Of a stretch of 64,000 nt of DNA, positions 12,272 through 19,424 are shown in pieces. Below the pieces are notes generated by a model. The model was not told where the DNA came from, ran no database searches, and saw nothing but the letters and a program-made list of their open reading frames with translations. The stretch comes from Phycobacter azelaicus. Lineage in GTDB: Bacteria; Pseudomonadota; Alphaproteobacteria; Rhodobacterales; Rhodobacteraceae. Location of the stretch: positions 3,256,001 through 3,320,000 of the forward strand of contig NZ_WKFH01000003.1 in NCBI RefSeq assembly GCF_014884385.1. The letters run 5' to 3'. The translations under genes were made by a program, and so were the position numbers. Position 1 is the first letter of the stretch. Each line of letters starts with the position of its first letter.

Positions 12272-13681
12272 ATGCAGAATGTGAATAGTGCGTCCCAGCC
12301 ATCCCCCCCAAAGGGAAGGGAAATAAACGAGTTGGCAGAAATCTCATCTCAGCTTGGCTTTGAGATTGTCGACGTTGCAGGCTTTCTCGACACGATTGAA
12401 AACAAGTCGCAAGGCCAGCTGAATGATCTAAAACAGCTGGATCGCGGCGCTGAACGGGTCGTCAAGGCAAATGCCCAGGTGATGGAAACCGTGGAAACGG
12501 TCACTAAATCTGCCCAACAGACCCTTGCCTCGGTTCAAAACTCGGTCACGCTTGTGCGCGAAAGCAGTGGCCACGGCCAGGAAGTTGCCGAGTGGGTGCA
12601 GGAGCTCAACAGCCGCACCGAGGCCGTTGCCGACACCGTTGACGCCATGCGTAAGGACAACGAAAAGATCACAGCGATCGCCGCGCAGGTGAATATTCTG
12701 GCAATCAATGCCAAGATCGAAGCCGGACGCGCCGGAGATGCGGGCCGCGGTTTTGCCGTCGTGGCTGAAGCGATCAACGACCTGTCGAAACGCACCACCG
12801 TCGCCGCCACCGAAATTAGCAAGAATATTGAGACGCTCTATGCCTGGATCAAGGATCTCGACCAGGAGACAGATACGATCTCCAAGTCCGCCAGCCGTAT
12901 TCTCGACCAAGCACGGGATACGGATGCTTCTTTGCTCGGCATCGAAAAGGACAGCCAACAAGTCAGCACTGGCACCGAACGCATTCTGAGCGACGCAACA
13001 ACAGTACGCGATGCCATGGAAGCGTGTTTTCCGAACATCGCGCGGATCAAGGCCTCTGTTGAAGAGACCACCTCCGGAATCCACAAAGCCCATGACCGGG
13101 TGGAAAGACTTGTTGCCTCGTCAGAACGCCTTGTGCAGGGCACCATCGCACTTGGCGGACAATCCGCCGACAAGAAATTCATTGCCTTTGTCACCGACAT
13201 GGCCGCCAATATCGGTAGCCAGTTCGAAAAGGCGCTGGAGAGCGGAGAGATCACCGAGGCCGAGCTCTTTGACCGCACTTATGTGCCGATCCCGAACACC
13301 AATCCACAACAAGTGATGACAGGGGTCACAAAATTCACCGACAAGGTGTTGCCGCCCCTTCTTGAAAGCGCGCTCGAGCTTGATCCCCGTGTCGTGTTTT
13401 CGGCCGCTGTGGATGTGAATGGTTATCTTCCGACCCACAACAAGAAGTTTTCGCATCCCCAGGGCCCCGATCCGGACTGGAACATGGCGAACTGCCGCAA
13501 CCGCCGCATTTTTGACGACCGTGTTGGCCTGAAGGCCGGACGCAACACCGGCCCCTTCCTGATGCAGGTCTATCGCCGCGATATGGGAGGCGGCGAGTTT
13601 GCGATGATGAAGGATCTGTCGGCCCCAATCACCGTGAACGGACGCCACTGGGGCGGGTTGCGCATGGCCTTCACCAGCTAG
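12272..13681 (+). CDS. Soluble methyl-accepting chemotaxis protein with C-terminal sensor-like domain
   Basis: A 469-residue receptor without any membrane span. Residues 60-310 are a long coiled coil. The conserved hairpin tip at about 133-169 includes [20 protein letters not shown] and [13 protein letters not shown], the surface that contacts CheA and CheW. Residues about 330-469 form a globular domain ([36 protein letters not shown]) that I read as a PAS/Cache-like sensory module placed after the signalling domain, the reverse of the usual order. No methylation-site consensus was verified. The start ATG 12272 has only a weak ribosome-binding site. No other che gene is near. Confidence 0.88.
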
Positions 13682-13700
13682 CCATCCGTACCGACACGTC

Positions 13701-13742
13701 AGCATAAAAAGGCCGCCGCACATCCGGGCAGATGGCGGCGGC
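13701..13742 (-). terminator. Terminator on the minus strand downstream of the 40-residue peptide gene
   Basis: GCCGCCGC at 13712-13719 pairs perfectly with 13735-13742 around a 15-base loop. Read on the minus strand the stem is followed by five T (13706-13710). It would end transcripts coming from the small membrane-peptide gene at 13893-14015. It lies 31 bases beyond the chemoreceptor stop and may also slow transcripts from that side, although no T run follows on the plus strand. Confidence 0.82.
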
Positions 13743-13892
13743 AAAAGGGCTCTTCATGCGGGATGTGATGCGCTTTCCGGCAATCGGGATGGGCCGGAAG
13801 GGATCTCGGTACAGGCGGATGTTCCCCTCATCAAATCGGGACAGGATGCAAGCGCAGTCACCATAAAGAGCCAAGGCAGGCAAAATTTCGAG

Positions 13893-14015
13893 TCAGAACA
13901 GTCCGGGCAGGTGCAGGCCGGCAATCAGCATCACCATCAGGGCGCACGCGCCGATGGCATCCTGCAGAAGGGTTGATTGGGCGTTTTGCAGCGTCGATTT
14001 CAGCTGTGCGATCAT
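13893..14015 (-). CDS. 40-residue single-span membrane peptide, possibly SOS-controlled
   Basis: The frame reads MIAQLKSTLQNAQSTLLQDA, then a hydrophobic half IGACALMVMLIAGLHLPGLF, and stops with TGA. The first 19 residues form an amphipathic, slightly basic stretch; the rest is one membrane span. The start is fixed by an excellent site (GGAGG, seven bases before ATG). The region 80-120 bases upstream holds GAAC repeats that include one exact alphaproteobacterial LexA-type box, and a terminator lies 150 bases downstream, so it is a complete stand-alone unit. Small SOS-induced inner-membrane peptides such as Caulobacter SidA share this layout but I see no sequence likeness I can vouch for. Function unknown. 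Confidence 0.78.
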   Translation of the reverse strand: MIAQLKSTLQNAQSTLLQDAIGACALMVMLIAGLHLPGLF

Positions 14016-14097
14016 CTCTCGTCCTCCGGGTCAGTTGATTGCGTGTTGCTCACGCTTTTGTTGCCCCTTTGTTCTCACAAGAGCCGCATCGAGTAAA

Positions 14098-14132
14098 GAA
14101 CTTTTTGAGAACATTTGAGAACAAATGGGAAC
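14098..14132 (-). promoter_or_regulatory. Candidate LexA box and GAAC repeat array
   Basis: GAAC at 14098-14101 and 14109-14112 are separated by exactly seven bases; on the minus strand this reads GTTCTCAAAAAGTTC, matching the GTTC-N7-GTTC LexA operator of Rhodobacterales. Two further GAAC copies at 14119-14122 and 14129-14132 follow at 10-base spacing (six bases between), giving near-tandem TTTGAGAACA units. The array lies between recG and the 40-residue peptide gene, upstream of the latter. Promoter hexamers could not be placed with confidence. Confidence 0.6.
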
Positions 14133-14162
14133 GCCCATCCGACACATTTGTTGCCCTGACAG

Positions 14163-16253
14163 TTAACCAACTGAAATCAAACGGAAAGCTTGATCTTGCT
14201 TCATCAGCCACAACAGAACACGCGCGGCCTGACCACGCGGCGAGCTTAAGCCGGGATCGGTCGAGAGCAGGGTACGAGCATCGCTTTGAGCGACAGCCAT
14301 CAAGGACGCCTGCCGTTCAAGATCAGCGATTCTGAACCGGGGCAAACCAGACTGTGCCGTCCCGATCATATCCCCGGCGCCGCGCATCTGCAGGTCGGTC
14401 TCAGCGATGCGAAAGCCATCTTCCGACTCTCTAAGCACTTCCAGACGCCGACGCCCCCCGTCACTGAGCGGCGGTTGATACATCAAGAGGCAAGTCGATT
14501 GAGCGCTACCGCGCCCCACTCGTCCTCGCAACTGATGAAGCTGCGCTAGACCAAAGATTTCTGCCCGCTCGATCACCATGATCGTCGCATTTGGCACGTT
14601 GACGCCCACCTCGATCACCGTAGTGGCCACGAGAACCTTGGTCCGACCATCCTGAAAGGCGGCCATCGCCGCGTCCTTCTCCGCCGGTGGCATCTGCCCA
14701 TGCACGAGACCCACGGTTTCATCGCCGAGGATCGCGCGCAACCGCTTGAACCGTTCTTCGGCGGCGGTCAAATCCATTACCTCGGATTCACCCACCAAAG
14801 GACACACCCAATAGCACTGACGCCCGTCCTCTATCGCCTGCCGCAGGTGGCTGATGACCTCCTCCATCCGTTCTGTGCTGATCACCGCAGTCTTGACCGG
14901 TTTTCGCCCAGGCGGTTTTTCATCAAGCACCGAAACATCCATGTCGCCGTATTGCGCCAGCGCCAAAGAGCGCGGAATCGGCGTGGCGGTCATCACCAGA
15001 ACATCGGCGCCGATTCCCTTTTCGGCCAGTTCCATACGCTGACGCACGCCAAAGCGATGCTGTTCATCGACGATTGCCAACCGCAAATCTGCAAAATGGA
15101 CGTCTTTTTGGAACACAGCATGAGTCCCAACCAGGATCTGGATATCACCCTTGGCAAGCGCAGCCAGTTTCGCCTTGCGTTCTGAACCCTTGTCGCGCCC
15201 CGTGAGGAGTTCCAGCACCACACCCGCCTCTTCCGCGAGGGGACGAAGGCCCTCATGGTGTTGCTGGGCCAGAATGCTGGTCGGGGCCATCATCACCCCC
15301 TGCCCGCCTGCCTCGACAGCCACCAACAACGCCATCAAGGCCACAAGTGTCTTTCCTGCCCCCACATCGCCCTGCAAAAGGCGGTTCATCCGTTCGTTTG
15401 ACGCCATATCGGCCGAGATTTCCTCGATCGCGCGTTGTTGCGCGCCGGTTGGCCTGTATGGCAGTGCTTCAAGAACACGGGACTGCAACTTACCGGAGGC
15501 CACGCTTTGGATGCCGCGGGATTTGCGCTCTGACTGGCGGGCCAGCGCAAGGGTCAGCTGGTGCGCCAGCAACTCGTCATAGGCAAGCCGGGCGCGCGCT
15601 GGCGCTTCCGGCGAGAGATCCTCAAGTCCTTTGGGTTCATGAGCCTGCGCGATGGCAGAATGCCAGGATGGCCAGGCCTCGCGCTTGATCTGGCCCGGGT
15701 CAATCCATTCCGGCAGCTCAGGCAGCAAACCAACGGCGCCGCGCAGCGCCTTGAACATGGTCTTTTGCGTCACGCCATGGGTCAGGTGATAGACCGGTTC
15801 AAACTCGGGAATATCCGCAGCTTCCTCCACGGGAAGCATGTGGTCCGGATGAACCATCTGGGCGATCCCATCAAAGAGCTCCAACTTCCCGGACACCAGG
15901 CGCCGGGCGCCTTCCGGACACTGAGCCAAAAGATAACGACTGCGCCCATGGAAGAACACCAGTTGAAAGTCCGTCTCGGCATCGCTGACCGTAATTCGAT
16001 AGGCCCCGCCCCGGTTGCGCGGCGGTCTGTGGGCGCCGATCGTGACTTCAACCGTTGCCACAGCAGGCAGCTCAAGCCCCTTTATGGTATCACGTCGCCT
16101 CCGATCCTGAACGGAATAAGGTAGCGAAAACAAAAGGTCACGCGGCGTCTCTATCTGAATCTGCTCAAGATGTTGCGCCGTTTTGGGGCCAATACCCGGC
16201 AGGCTGTCCAGCCGGGAAAACAATGGAAACAGGATTTCCGGGCGCCCACTCAT
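14163..16253 (-). CDS. recG: ATP-dependent DNA helicase RecG
   Basis: RecG reverses stalled replication forks and branch-migrates Holliday junctions. The 696-residue protein starts with the wedge/OB domain (SRLDSLPGIGPKTAQHLEQI), followed by two RecA-like helicase lobes. The Walker A motif is LLQGDVGAGKTLVALMAL, the DEQH box is IVDEQHRFGVRQR, motif VI lies in HQLRGRVGRGSAQS, and the RecG-specific C-terminal region includes DLQMRGAGDMIGTAQSG. Its start is two bases after the ligA stop, so it is translated from the same message as ligA. Confidence 0.96.
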   Translation of the reverse strand: MSGRPEILFPLFSRLDSLPGIGPKTAQHLEQIQIETPRDLLFSLPYSVQDRRRRDTIKGLELPAVATVEVTIGAHRPPRNRGGAYRITVSDAETDFQLVFFHGRSRYLLAQCPEGARRLVSGKLELFDGIAQMVHPDHMLPVEEAADIPEFEPVYHLTHGVTQKTMFKALRGAVGLLPELPEWIDPGQIKREAWPSWHSAIAQAHEPKGLEDLSPEAPARARLAYDELLAHQLTLALARQSERKSRGIQSVASGKLQSRVLEALPYRPTGAQQRAIEEISADMASNERMNRLLQGDVGAGKTLVALMALLVAVEAGGQGVMMAPTSILAQQHHEGLRPLAEEAGVVLELLTGRDKGSERKAKLAALAKGDIQILVGTHAVFQKDVHFADLRLAIVDEQHRFGVRQRMELAEKGIGADVLVMTATPIPRSLALAQYGDMDVSVLDEKPPGRKPVKTAVISTERMEEVISHLRQAIEDGRQCYWVCPLVGESEVMDLTAAEERFKRLRAILGDETVGLVHGQMPPAEKDAAMAAFQDGRTKVLVATTVIEVGVNVPNATIMVIERAEIFGLAQLHQLRGRVGRGSAQSTCLLMYQPPLSDGGRRRLEVLRESEDGFRIAETDLQMRGAGDMIGTAQSGLPRFRIADLERQASLMAVAQSDARTLLSTDPGLSSPRGQAARVLLWLMKQDQAFRLISVG

Positions 16254-16255
16254 GA

Positions 16256-18523
<2,268 letters not shown>

Positions 18524-18698: not shown

Positions 18699-19424
18699 TC
18701 AGGCGCCAACAGCGAGGCGTTGCTCGCTACCGTTGCCCAGCTGGTCATCCTGCGGATCACGCAGAACATACCCGCGGCCCCAGACGGTTTCGATGTAGTT
18801 CTCGCCACCGGTTGCGGTGCTGAGTTTCTTTCTCAGCTTACAGATGAATACGTCGATGATTTTGAGCTCAGGCTCGTCCATGCCACCATATAGATGGTTC
18901 AGGAACATCTCTTTGGTCAAAGTGGTGCCCTTACGCAGACTTAGCAGTTCGAGCATCTGATACTCTTTGCCGGTTAGATGCACAGCCTTGCCTTCCACCT
19001 CGACGGTCTTGGCATCAAGGTTGACCGAAATCTTGCCGGTCTTGATGATTGACTGTGAATGCCCCTTGGAACGGCGAATGATCGCGTGAATACGGGCCAC
19101 CAGCTCTTCGCGGTGGAACGGTTTTGTCAGATAATCGTCTGCCCCAAAACCGAAGCCCTTGATTTTGTTGTCGGTGTCATCAGCTCCGGACAGGATCAAG
19201 ATGGGTGTCTCGATACGTGCCATGCGCAATTGGCGCAGCACTTCGTGCCCATTCATGTCAGGAAGGCCCAGATCCAGAAGGATCAGATCGTAATCATAAA
19301 GTTTCGCAAGATCGATGCCCTCTTCGCCCAAATCCGTCGTGTAGACGTTCAGATTTGCATGGGTCAGCATCAACTCAATGCTTTTCGCAGTAGTAGGATC
19401 ATCCTCGACAAGAAGAATGCGCAT
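18699..19424 (-). CDS. ctrA: Cell-cycle response regulator CtrA
   Basis: An OmpR-family response regulator of 241 residues. Its receiver domain has the acidic pocket (VEDDP) and phospho-acceptor Asp51 in [20 protein letters not shown]. The winged-helix DNA-binding domain contains [20 protein letters not shown] and [14 protein letters not shown], nearly identical to the Caulobacter protein. In Rhodobacterales CtrA is usually not essential and controls motility, chemotaxis and gene-transfer-agent production and release. It is transcribed downstream of sciP with 173 bases between; that gap is AT-rich with several TTAA motifs that could be self-binding sites. Confidence 0.97.

Follow-up and report, generated by a model that had tools for sequence, protein, structure and literature searches.

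The stretch between the stop codon of a small membrane-peptide gene and its intrinsic terminator is, on comparative sequence evidence, a conserved structured RNA in which compensatory changes support one fold. We found no earlier description of this RNA and it has no Rfam match, and we regard it as the main new result of our analysis of a 64,000-nucleotide stretch of the Phycobacter azelaicus genome (the window). The locus had originally been predicted to encode a 40-residue SOS-induced membrane peptide; with the conserved structured RNA, the candidate small SOS peptide becomes a candidate dual-function SOS transcript. We consider it reasonably probable that the unit is a LexA-controlled, possibly dual-function transcript that combines an inner-membrane peptide with an RNA module. 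Its features in the window are as follows.

16256-18502, minus strand: ligA, the next frame beyond recG, assigned by reading of its sequence rather than by a family search
14163..16253, minus strand: recG, the directly upstream neighbour, assigned by its RecG domains
14129-14132, minus strand: fourth GTTC, 10 nt further out than the tripartite operator
14098..14122, minus strand: tripartite LexA-like operator GTTC-N6-GTTC-N7-GTTC, with the N7 pair at 14098-14112
14093..14097, minus strand: TTTAC directly 3' of the operator, a possible -35 element (near-invariant columns in 100 deduplicated loci)
14060..14074, minus strand: second LexA-like box, inverted and imperfect, GAAC-N7-CAAC
14023..14027, minus strand: GGAGG ribosome-binding site (RBS-like motif in 171 of 179 loci)
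13893..14015, minus strand: 40-codon open reading frame with an N-terminal helix and a single membrane span
13740..13879, minus strand: conserved structured RNA, in which an outer stem bearing a C-rich bulge encloses hairpins with C-rich loops
about 13743-13706, minus strand: GC-rich intrinsic terminator hairpin and U-run, found by folding

On the plus strand, GAAC occurs at 14098, 14109, 14119 and 14129, so that the minus strand reads GTTC-N6-GTTC-N6-GTTC-N7-GTTC from 14132 to 14098. The GTTC array starts 30 nt beyond the recG stop codon, and the order on the minus strand is the GTTC array, TTTAC and then GTGAGAAC, which holds the GAAC-N7-CAAC box. TTTAC may be the -35 promoter element; no -10 element could be assigned convincingly, no standard -10 was recognised and a sigma-70 scan of the locus returned no promoter. 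The terminator, absent from the output of a simple terminator scan, was seen on folding. The original prediction had described a GAAC-N7-GAAC pair with two extra GAACs, a GGAGG site, a 40-codon frame with one membrane span and an intrinsic terminator, all beside recG and ligA. Each of these is present at the coordinates given, and the peptide has a best 19-residue hydropathy of 1.99 and one predicted span. Of the interpretation built on them, LexA-type control and a membrane peptide gained comparative support, and a role in blocking division is plausible by analogy; what had been overlooked is the inverted imperfect box and the structured RNA from stop codon to terminator, which accounts for roughly half of the putative transcript.

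Adjoining ligA and recG is a gene that reads as a CtrA-like response regulator (18699-19424, minus strand), so that in this genome the peptide gene closes a cluster of cell-cycle and repair genes. On the other side, a gene whose product has a methyl-accepting chemotaxis signalling domain (12272-13681, plus strand) lies between the peptide gene and a NifU-like gene. The sole lexA match of the genome (G000:C3:3250773-3251480) is about 4.5 kb outside the window and about 18 kb from the peptide gene.

Fifteen close proteins were found and aligned, and the resulting profile was used for genome searches. Our family survey took one genome per genus from the window's family, 295 in total, the named relatives being Rhodobacteraceae. 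The profile matched the peptide in 232 of these genomes, with one match per genome among those listed, and located 205 encoding stretches in the species collection, 80 of which we retained as loci. With a broader profile, 655 proteins were matched at E<=0.001; among the 120 listed, names are hypothetical or uncharacterized and the organisms recognised are Rhodobacterales. Of 179 loci in which the frame is clear, 168 encode a peptide of exactly 40 residues. Among the 159 unique sequences of this length, D19 is retained in 158 and so is G22; L34 and P37 are also near-invariant, and the conserved motif reads TLxQDxxG...LxxPG. The median pairwise dN/dS is 0.31, and codon positions 1, 2 and 3 carry 1.15, 1.58 and 0.64 bits (40 aligned loci). 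Judged by these measures, the peptide is the product of a real, selected gene. AlphaFold models it as a single helix (residues 2-39, mean pLDDT 85). Searches with the peptide against Pfam and PDB sequences returned no match, and those against NCBIfam and PHROG weak noise only (best E 0.017 in NCBIfam, 4/16 members; 0.11 in PHROG). Phage records gave no match, and a plasmid search gave one weak match, in a Pseudorhodobacter.

On the upstream side the gene neighbourhood is constant. A recG match precedes the peptide in all 80 loci and ends at most 210 nt before the start codon in 77; the exceptions are L048 and L059, where it lies about 620 nt away, and L030, where the recG match is partial. A NifU-like gene follows downstream in 78 of the 80, the contigs of the remaining two ending early, and the chemoreceptor-like neighbour of the window is matched in just 17. 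One locus (L027, JAHVJD010000001.1) is titled Nocardioides marinus and carries a Rhodobacteraceae-type recG and peptide locus, so that the label looks wrong.

Downstream of the frame, the stretch from stop codon to terminator (about 190 nt) can be aligned across distant genera. In 108 of 110 loci a terminator follows the stop codon at 163-382 nt (median 191), and in the remaining two the contig is cut. None of 712 control windows shows the same GC-rich terminator pattern. The RNA folds into an outer stem with a C-rich bulge that encloses hairpins with loops such as CUGUCCC, CUGCCUGUCC and UGCCUC. C-rich motifs, a class chosen after the alignment was seen, number 3.62 per UTR compared to 1.46 in shuffles, and they are unpaired more than average (0.66 vs 0.44). 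The 3' part folds better than shuffles (z -3.73); folding of the whole 359-nt transcript is no better than that of shuffles (z -1.25).

To assess the individual stems, we exchanged stem arms between species on unaligned sequences, with identical flanks merged beforehand. Among 98 unique UTRs, anchors were found for hairpin H1 in 77, H2 in 78, H3 in 22 and the outer stem in 79. For the outer stem, a sequence's own partner pairs better than exchanged ones in 74 of 77 cases (p 2e-13); the counts are 56 of 69 for H1 and 20 of 22 for H3, and the result for H2 is weak (40 of 71, p 0.027).

A covariance model built from six Ruegeria-type sequences, which does not include H1, was run on 75 of the 110 loci. 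It matched 46 of them at E<=1 (three of these being seeds) and missed 29, and every match fell in this 3' UTR, with none in the remainder of the 503,116 bases searched. The match in the window covers 13740-13879 on the minus strand (E 1.2e-4). In a second search the model matched one of 14 diverged loci (L325), some of which are too short to hold the RNA, and it found nothing in 33 lexA, recA and uvrA loci. The model-fitted alignment contains double changes at 35 of 36 modelled pairs, with 315 such cells compared to 82 in shuffles, and sliding the partners along this alignment destroys the covariation signal. Since the model-fitted alignment leans to structure and lacks H1, the arm-swap test matters for the argument. 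RNAalifold on a MAFFT alignment of 46 UTRs recovered the terminator only, because the inner hairpins are misaligned; the arm swaps and the covariance model took its place. An Rfam 15 search of positions 13600-14400 yielded four weak matches of eukaryotic or archaeal type, far below gathering and none plausible, and a search of four whole loci yielded no family for the 3' RNA and one weak match elsewhere. The structured 3' RNA would represent a new RNA family; should it prove active, it would be a regulatory RNA induced by damage and joined to a membrane peptide.

Turning to the operator, the bare motif GTTC-N7-GTTC is not enriched in the window (3 found vs 1.84 expected), and genome-wide it occurs at chance level (121 vs 110 for a reversed control). 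The bare box is no rarer than chance, and the evidence that this box is real comes from conservation. We collected 190 loci (80 from the species collection, 30 from family genomes and 80 distant ones, L224-L303, picked among the matches listed rather than from all 232), of which 181 have unique upstream sequence. In 178 of the 181, GTTC-N7-GTTC occurs no more than 170 nt before the peptide frame. L065 and L068 have N6 pairs only, and L270 is without any box, the sole such locus; it comes from G157, a genome 80% complete and with no lexA match. Frame and box, whose loss in relatives would have spoken against the original prediction, are by these counts widely kept. The pattern GTTC-N7-GTTCTTTAC occurs in 202 of the 295 family genomes compared to 24 for the reversed pattern (counted by hand). 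At its site in 11 genomes without a peptide match (L318-L328), a diverged small membrane peptide, with the frame picked by eye, comes next in nine; in L326 and L327 no small membrane peptide follows. A third half-site, GTTC at N6, is present in 154 of the 178 loci, and the inverted box has CAAC at its place in 160 of 177 and GAAC in three. We also considered a regulon sharing the whole block, and found no other copy in the genome at up to 3 mismatches.

As an SOS reference we used 29 genomes, in which GTTC-N7-GTTC occurs in 27 of 29 lexA promoters, 29 of 29 recA promoters and 29 of 29 uvrA promoters; the two lexA loci left out (L124, L138) are cut or partial. A position weight matrix (PWM) built from the 85 boxes, all picked as strict GTTC-N7-GTTC, gives the gene's box a mean score of 15.9 over 110 loci (lowest 5.0, window 16.4). 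The leave-gene-out means are 17.7 for lexA, 22.1 for recA and 10.5 for uvrA, and 701 random 300-bp windows score at most 13.3, with 89% of loci above that value. By this sequence measure, the gene's box scores within the range of lexA, recA and uvrA boxes. As the training boxes are strict by selection, other strict boxes are the fairer control: the six found elsewhere in the 80 loci, a small set of chance boxes, have a mean of 10.6 and a maximum of 14.2, and the gene's 108 strict boxes have a mean of 16.1. The inverted box scores 16.7 on average over 110 loci (18.7 in the window; minimum -30.5), and at least one locus is without it.

The half-site layout points the same way. Of 27 lexA operators, 20 carry GTTN at the corresponding N6 position, compared to 9 of 243 at nine other offsets, a difference for which the Fisher test ignores relatedness, and a third half-site at N6 occurs in 1 of 29 recA and 0 of 29 uvrA operators. 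In lexA the tripartite layout runs the opposite way relative to the gene, so promoter geometry is not the explanation. Among lexA promoters (L111-L139) the third half-site is mostly GTTT, with GTTC in three, and the lexA of the window's own genome has GCTT, not GTTN, at the N6 place. The recA promoters (L141-L169) show a conserved imperfect box upstream of the perfect one, mostly GTTC-N7-GATC or GTTC-N7-GGTC. A box conserved across the family, its LexA-like score and a half-site layout in common with the lexA operator together support the LexA-type control that had been predicted, and the common layout hints at a way in which LexA may recognise direct repeats in these bacteria.

Some details do not fit a standard SOS box. 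Immediately before the second GTTC, 174 of 178 loci have an A, compared to T in 73, C in 11 and A in one of the 85 SOS boxes; relative to the half-site TGTTC of lexA, recA and uvrA, the first half matches and the second is AGTTC in those 174. The operator spacer carries 1.57 bits, compared to 0.53 for uvrA, 1.15 for recA and 1.22 for lexA. This higher conservation implies that something beyond LexA also constrains the spacer.

Fifteen genomes have no lexA match (13) or a weak one (2), and recA was found in 13 of the fifteen. G157 keeps the peptide, whereas the box upstream of it and the strict box of recA are both lost. In G029, G167 and G059 the recA box, a peptide match and the box pattern are all absent. 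G150 and G028 keep the gene's box without a recA box. The sole lexA match of G150 (L317, L333-L392), a genome rated 100% complete and with no full LexA match, resembles a phage-type C-terminal domain; its uvrA box is kept too, which weakens G150 as a counter-example to LexA. Its 3' stretch is reduced to little more than the terminator. G158, G160, G196 and G033 keep the recA box, and the first three of these the gene's box as well; lexA is probably just unassembled in these four. G069 and G159 keep the gene's box and have no recA match; like the four just named, they speak neither for nor against LexA. We drew nothing from G147 and G195, where the recA upstream region is not reliably anchored, or from G008. 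The evidence from genomes lacking lexA is mixed, and taking it together with the operator comparisons we regard LexA control of the peptide gene as likely.

Several other explanations bear on this locus. One is a SidA-like SOS division inhibitor, in which the peptide would be the sole product, binding late divisome proteins of the FtsW/FtsN type and delaying septation, and the 3' structure would merely stabilise the mRNA. The size, single span and LexA-type box fit this, as do the Caulobacter precedent and the constant recG neighbour, and near-invariant D19, G22, L34 and P37 suggest a specific partner. Against it, RNA structure and loop sequence are conserved beyond what stability needs, and we judge it unlikely, though the strongest of the rivals. 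A type I toxin of the TisB kind, an SOS-induced peptide that depolarises the membrane and is restrained by structure or antisense RNA, would likewise account for a small hydrophobic peptide, LexA-type control and a structured transcript. Toxin modules are patchy, whereas this gene is widespread, syntenic, fixed in length, under purifying selection and present as one match per listed genome; phage and plasmid records yielded just the weak Pseudorhodobacter match, and viewing the reverse strand by eye for a conserved promoter revealed none that convinced us. We therefore consider a toxin improbable.

The control element itself could belong to another regulator that binds direct repeats, such as an OmpR-family response regulator or a non-LexA damage sensor, with the resemblance to a LexA box partly coincidence. 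A GTTC on each helical turn, three or four in all and 10-11 bp apart, would suit such a protein, and so would the A before the last GTTC, the imperfect inverted box, the over-conserved spacer, the two loci with N6 pairs only and the box kept without a full lexA in G150 and G028. On the other hand, the block is unique in the genome, and the tripartite layout recurs in lexA operators, though not in those of recA or uvrA. Of the named candidates, CenR has a TGA-N8-TGA motif that was not seen by eye in the conserved block (motif from the accessible part of PMC9275681), and the ChvI motifs reported in the accessible part of PMC9731502 do not fit by eye either; for GafA, the available parts of its description contained no site motif that we could find. 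We rate a different regulator as rather doubtful, less so than a toxin. A chance box upstream of a spurious small frame would be in keeping with the chance frequency of the bare box in window and genome. It is refuted by the comparative data, in which frame, length, box, spacing and RNA fold are conserved across the family, and we give it practically no weight.

Under the LexA-controlled, dual-function reading, the locus would form a transcription unit of its own, SOS-type and about 350 nt long, that is widespread in Rhodobacteraceae. Binding of LexA to the GTTC half-sites around the promoter would keep the unit off, and LexA cleavage upon DNA damage would release it. From the single transcript two products would then arise: an inner-membrane peptide of 40 residues with one span, and a structured RNA domain at the 3' end, whose C-rich loops and bulge would be well suited to pair with other mRNAs at Shine-Dalgarno-like or purine-rich sites. 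As the most likely outcome, division or envelope growth would slow temporarily during DNA repair, and division delay is favoured because of SidA in Caulobacter. The parts of this scheme differ in strength. The selected peptide, the box with its spacing and the RNA fold are established by comparison across genomes. The transcript start, LexA binding and damage induction are all quite probable; that the RNA acts in trans has slightly less than even chances, and action of the peptide on the divisome is a more tentative suggestion by analogy, with division arrest a plausible consequence. The fullest version, a family-wide SOS dual-function RNA with an envelope or divisome peptide and C-rich loops regulating other mRNAs, is possible and rather speculative. 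If true, one small gene, which in this genome is a neighbour of ctrA, ligA and recG, would tie DNA damage to both division and translation.

We found no earlier description of the gene or the RNA in the literature searched, which mostly excluded subscription papers and included the accessible part of PMC3323433. The original prediction knew of no described peptide of this kind in Rhodobacterales. The LexA targets of D. shibae named in the accessible part of PMC6473078 include no such gene. As far as the available portions of PMC4211646, PMC12700426 and PMC9578287 describe it, an SOS-induced division inhibitor of alphaproteobacteria is known for Caulobacter only. Rhodobacteraceae are a large marine and photosynthetic family that includes tractable strains, and a candidate so widespread among them opens the division-inhibitor question to experiment in this group.

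Compared to the family's own LexA operators at lexA, recA and uvrA, the operator of the peptide gene is alike in GTTC-N7-GTTC and in PWM scores, and in tripartite layout to lexA only; it differs in the A before the second GTTC, the imperfect second box and the more conserved spacer. SidA of Caulobacter crescentus is a 29-residue SOS-induced inner-membrane division inhibitor that acts on FtsW (PMC4211646, as far as accessible). Set beside SidA by its properties rather than by sequence comparison, the present gene likewise belongs to an alphaproteobacterium, has probable LexA-type control and encodes a very small predicted membrane peptide; it differs in its 40 residues, recG synteny, family-wide spread and structured 3' RNA. 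For the RNA, EcpR1 of Sinorhizobium is a stress RNA with C-rich loops that acts on cell-cycle genes (accessible part of PMC4414408). Like the 3' RNA described here, EcpR1 combines hairpins presenting C-rich loops with an intrinsic terminator. The CcsR 'cuckoo' RNAs are also alphaproteobacterial stress sRNAs with C-rich loops. EcpR1 and CcsR have another structure and locus, whereas the present RNA lies 3' of a coding frame, has a LexA-type box and matches no Rfam family. The arrangement as a whole resembles SgrS/SgrT and RNAIII, dual-function transcripts that hold a small peptide frame and a structured RNA in one molecule; the combination of peptide and RNA is alike, and the peptide, the fold and the control at this locus differ from both.
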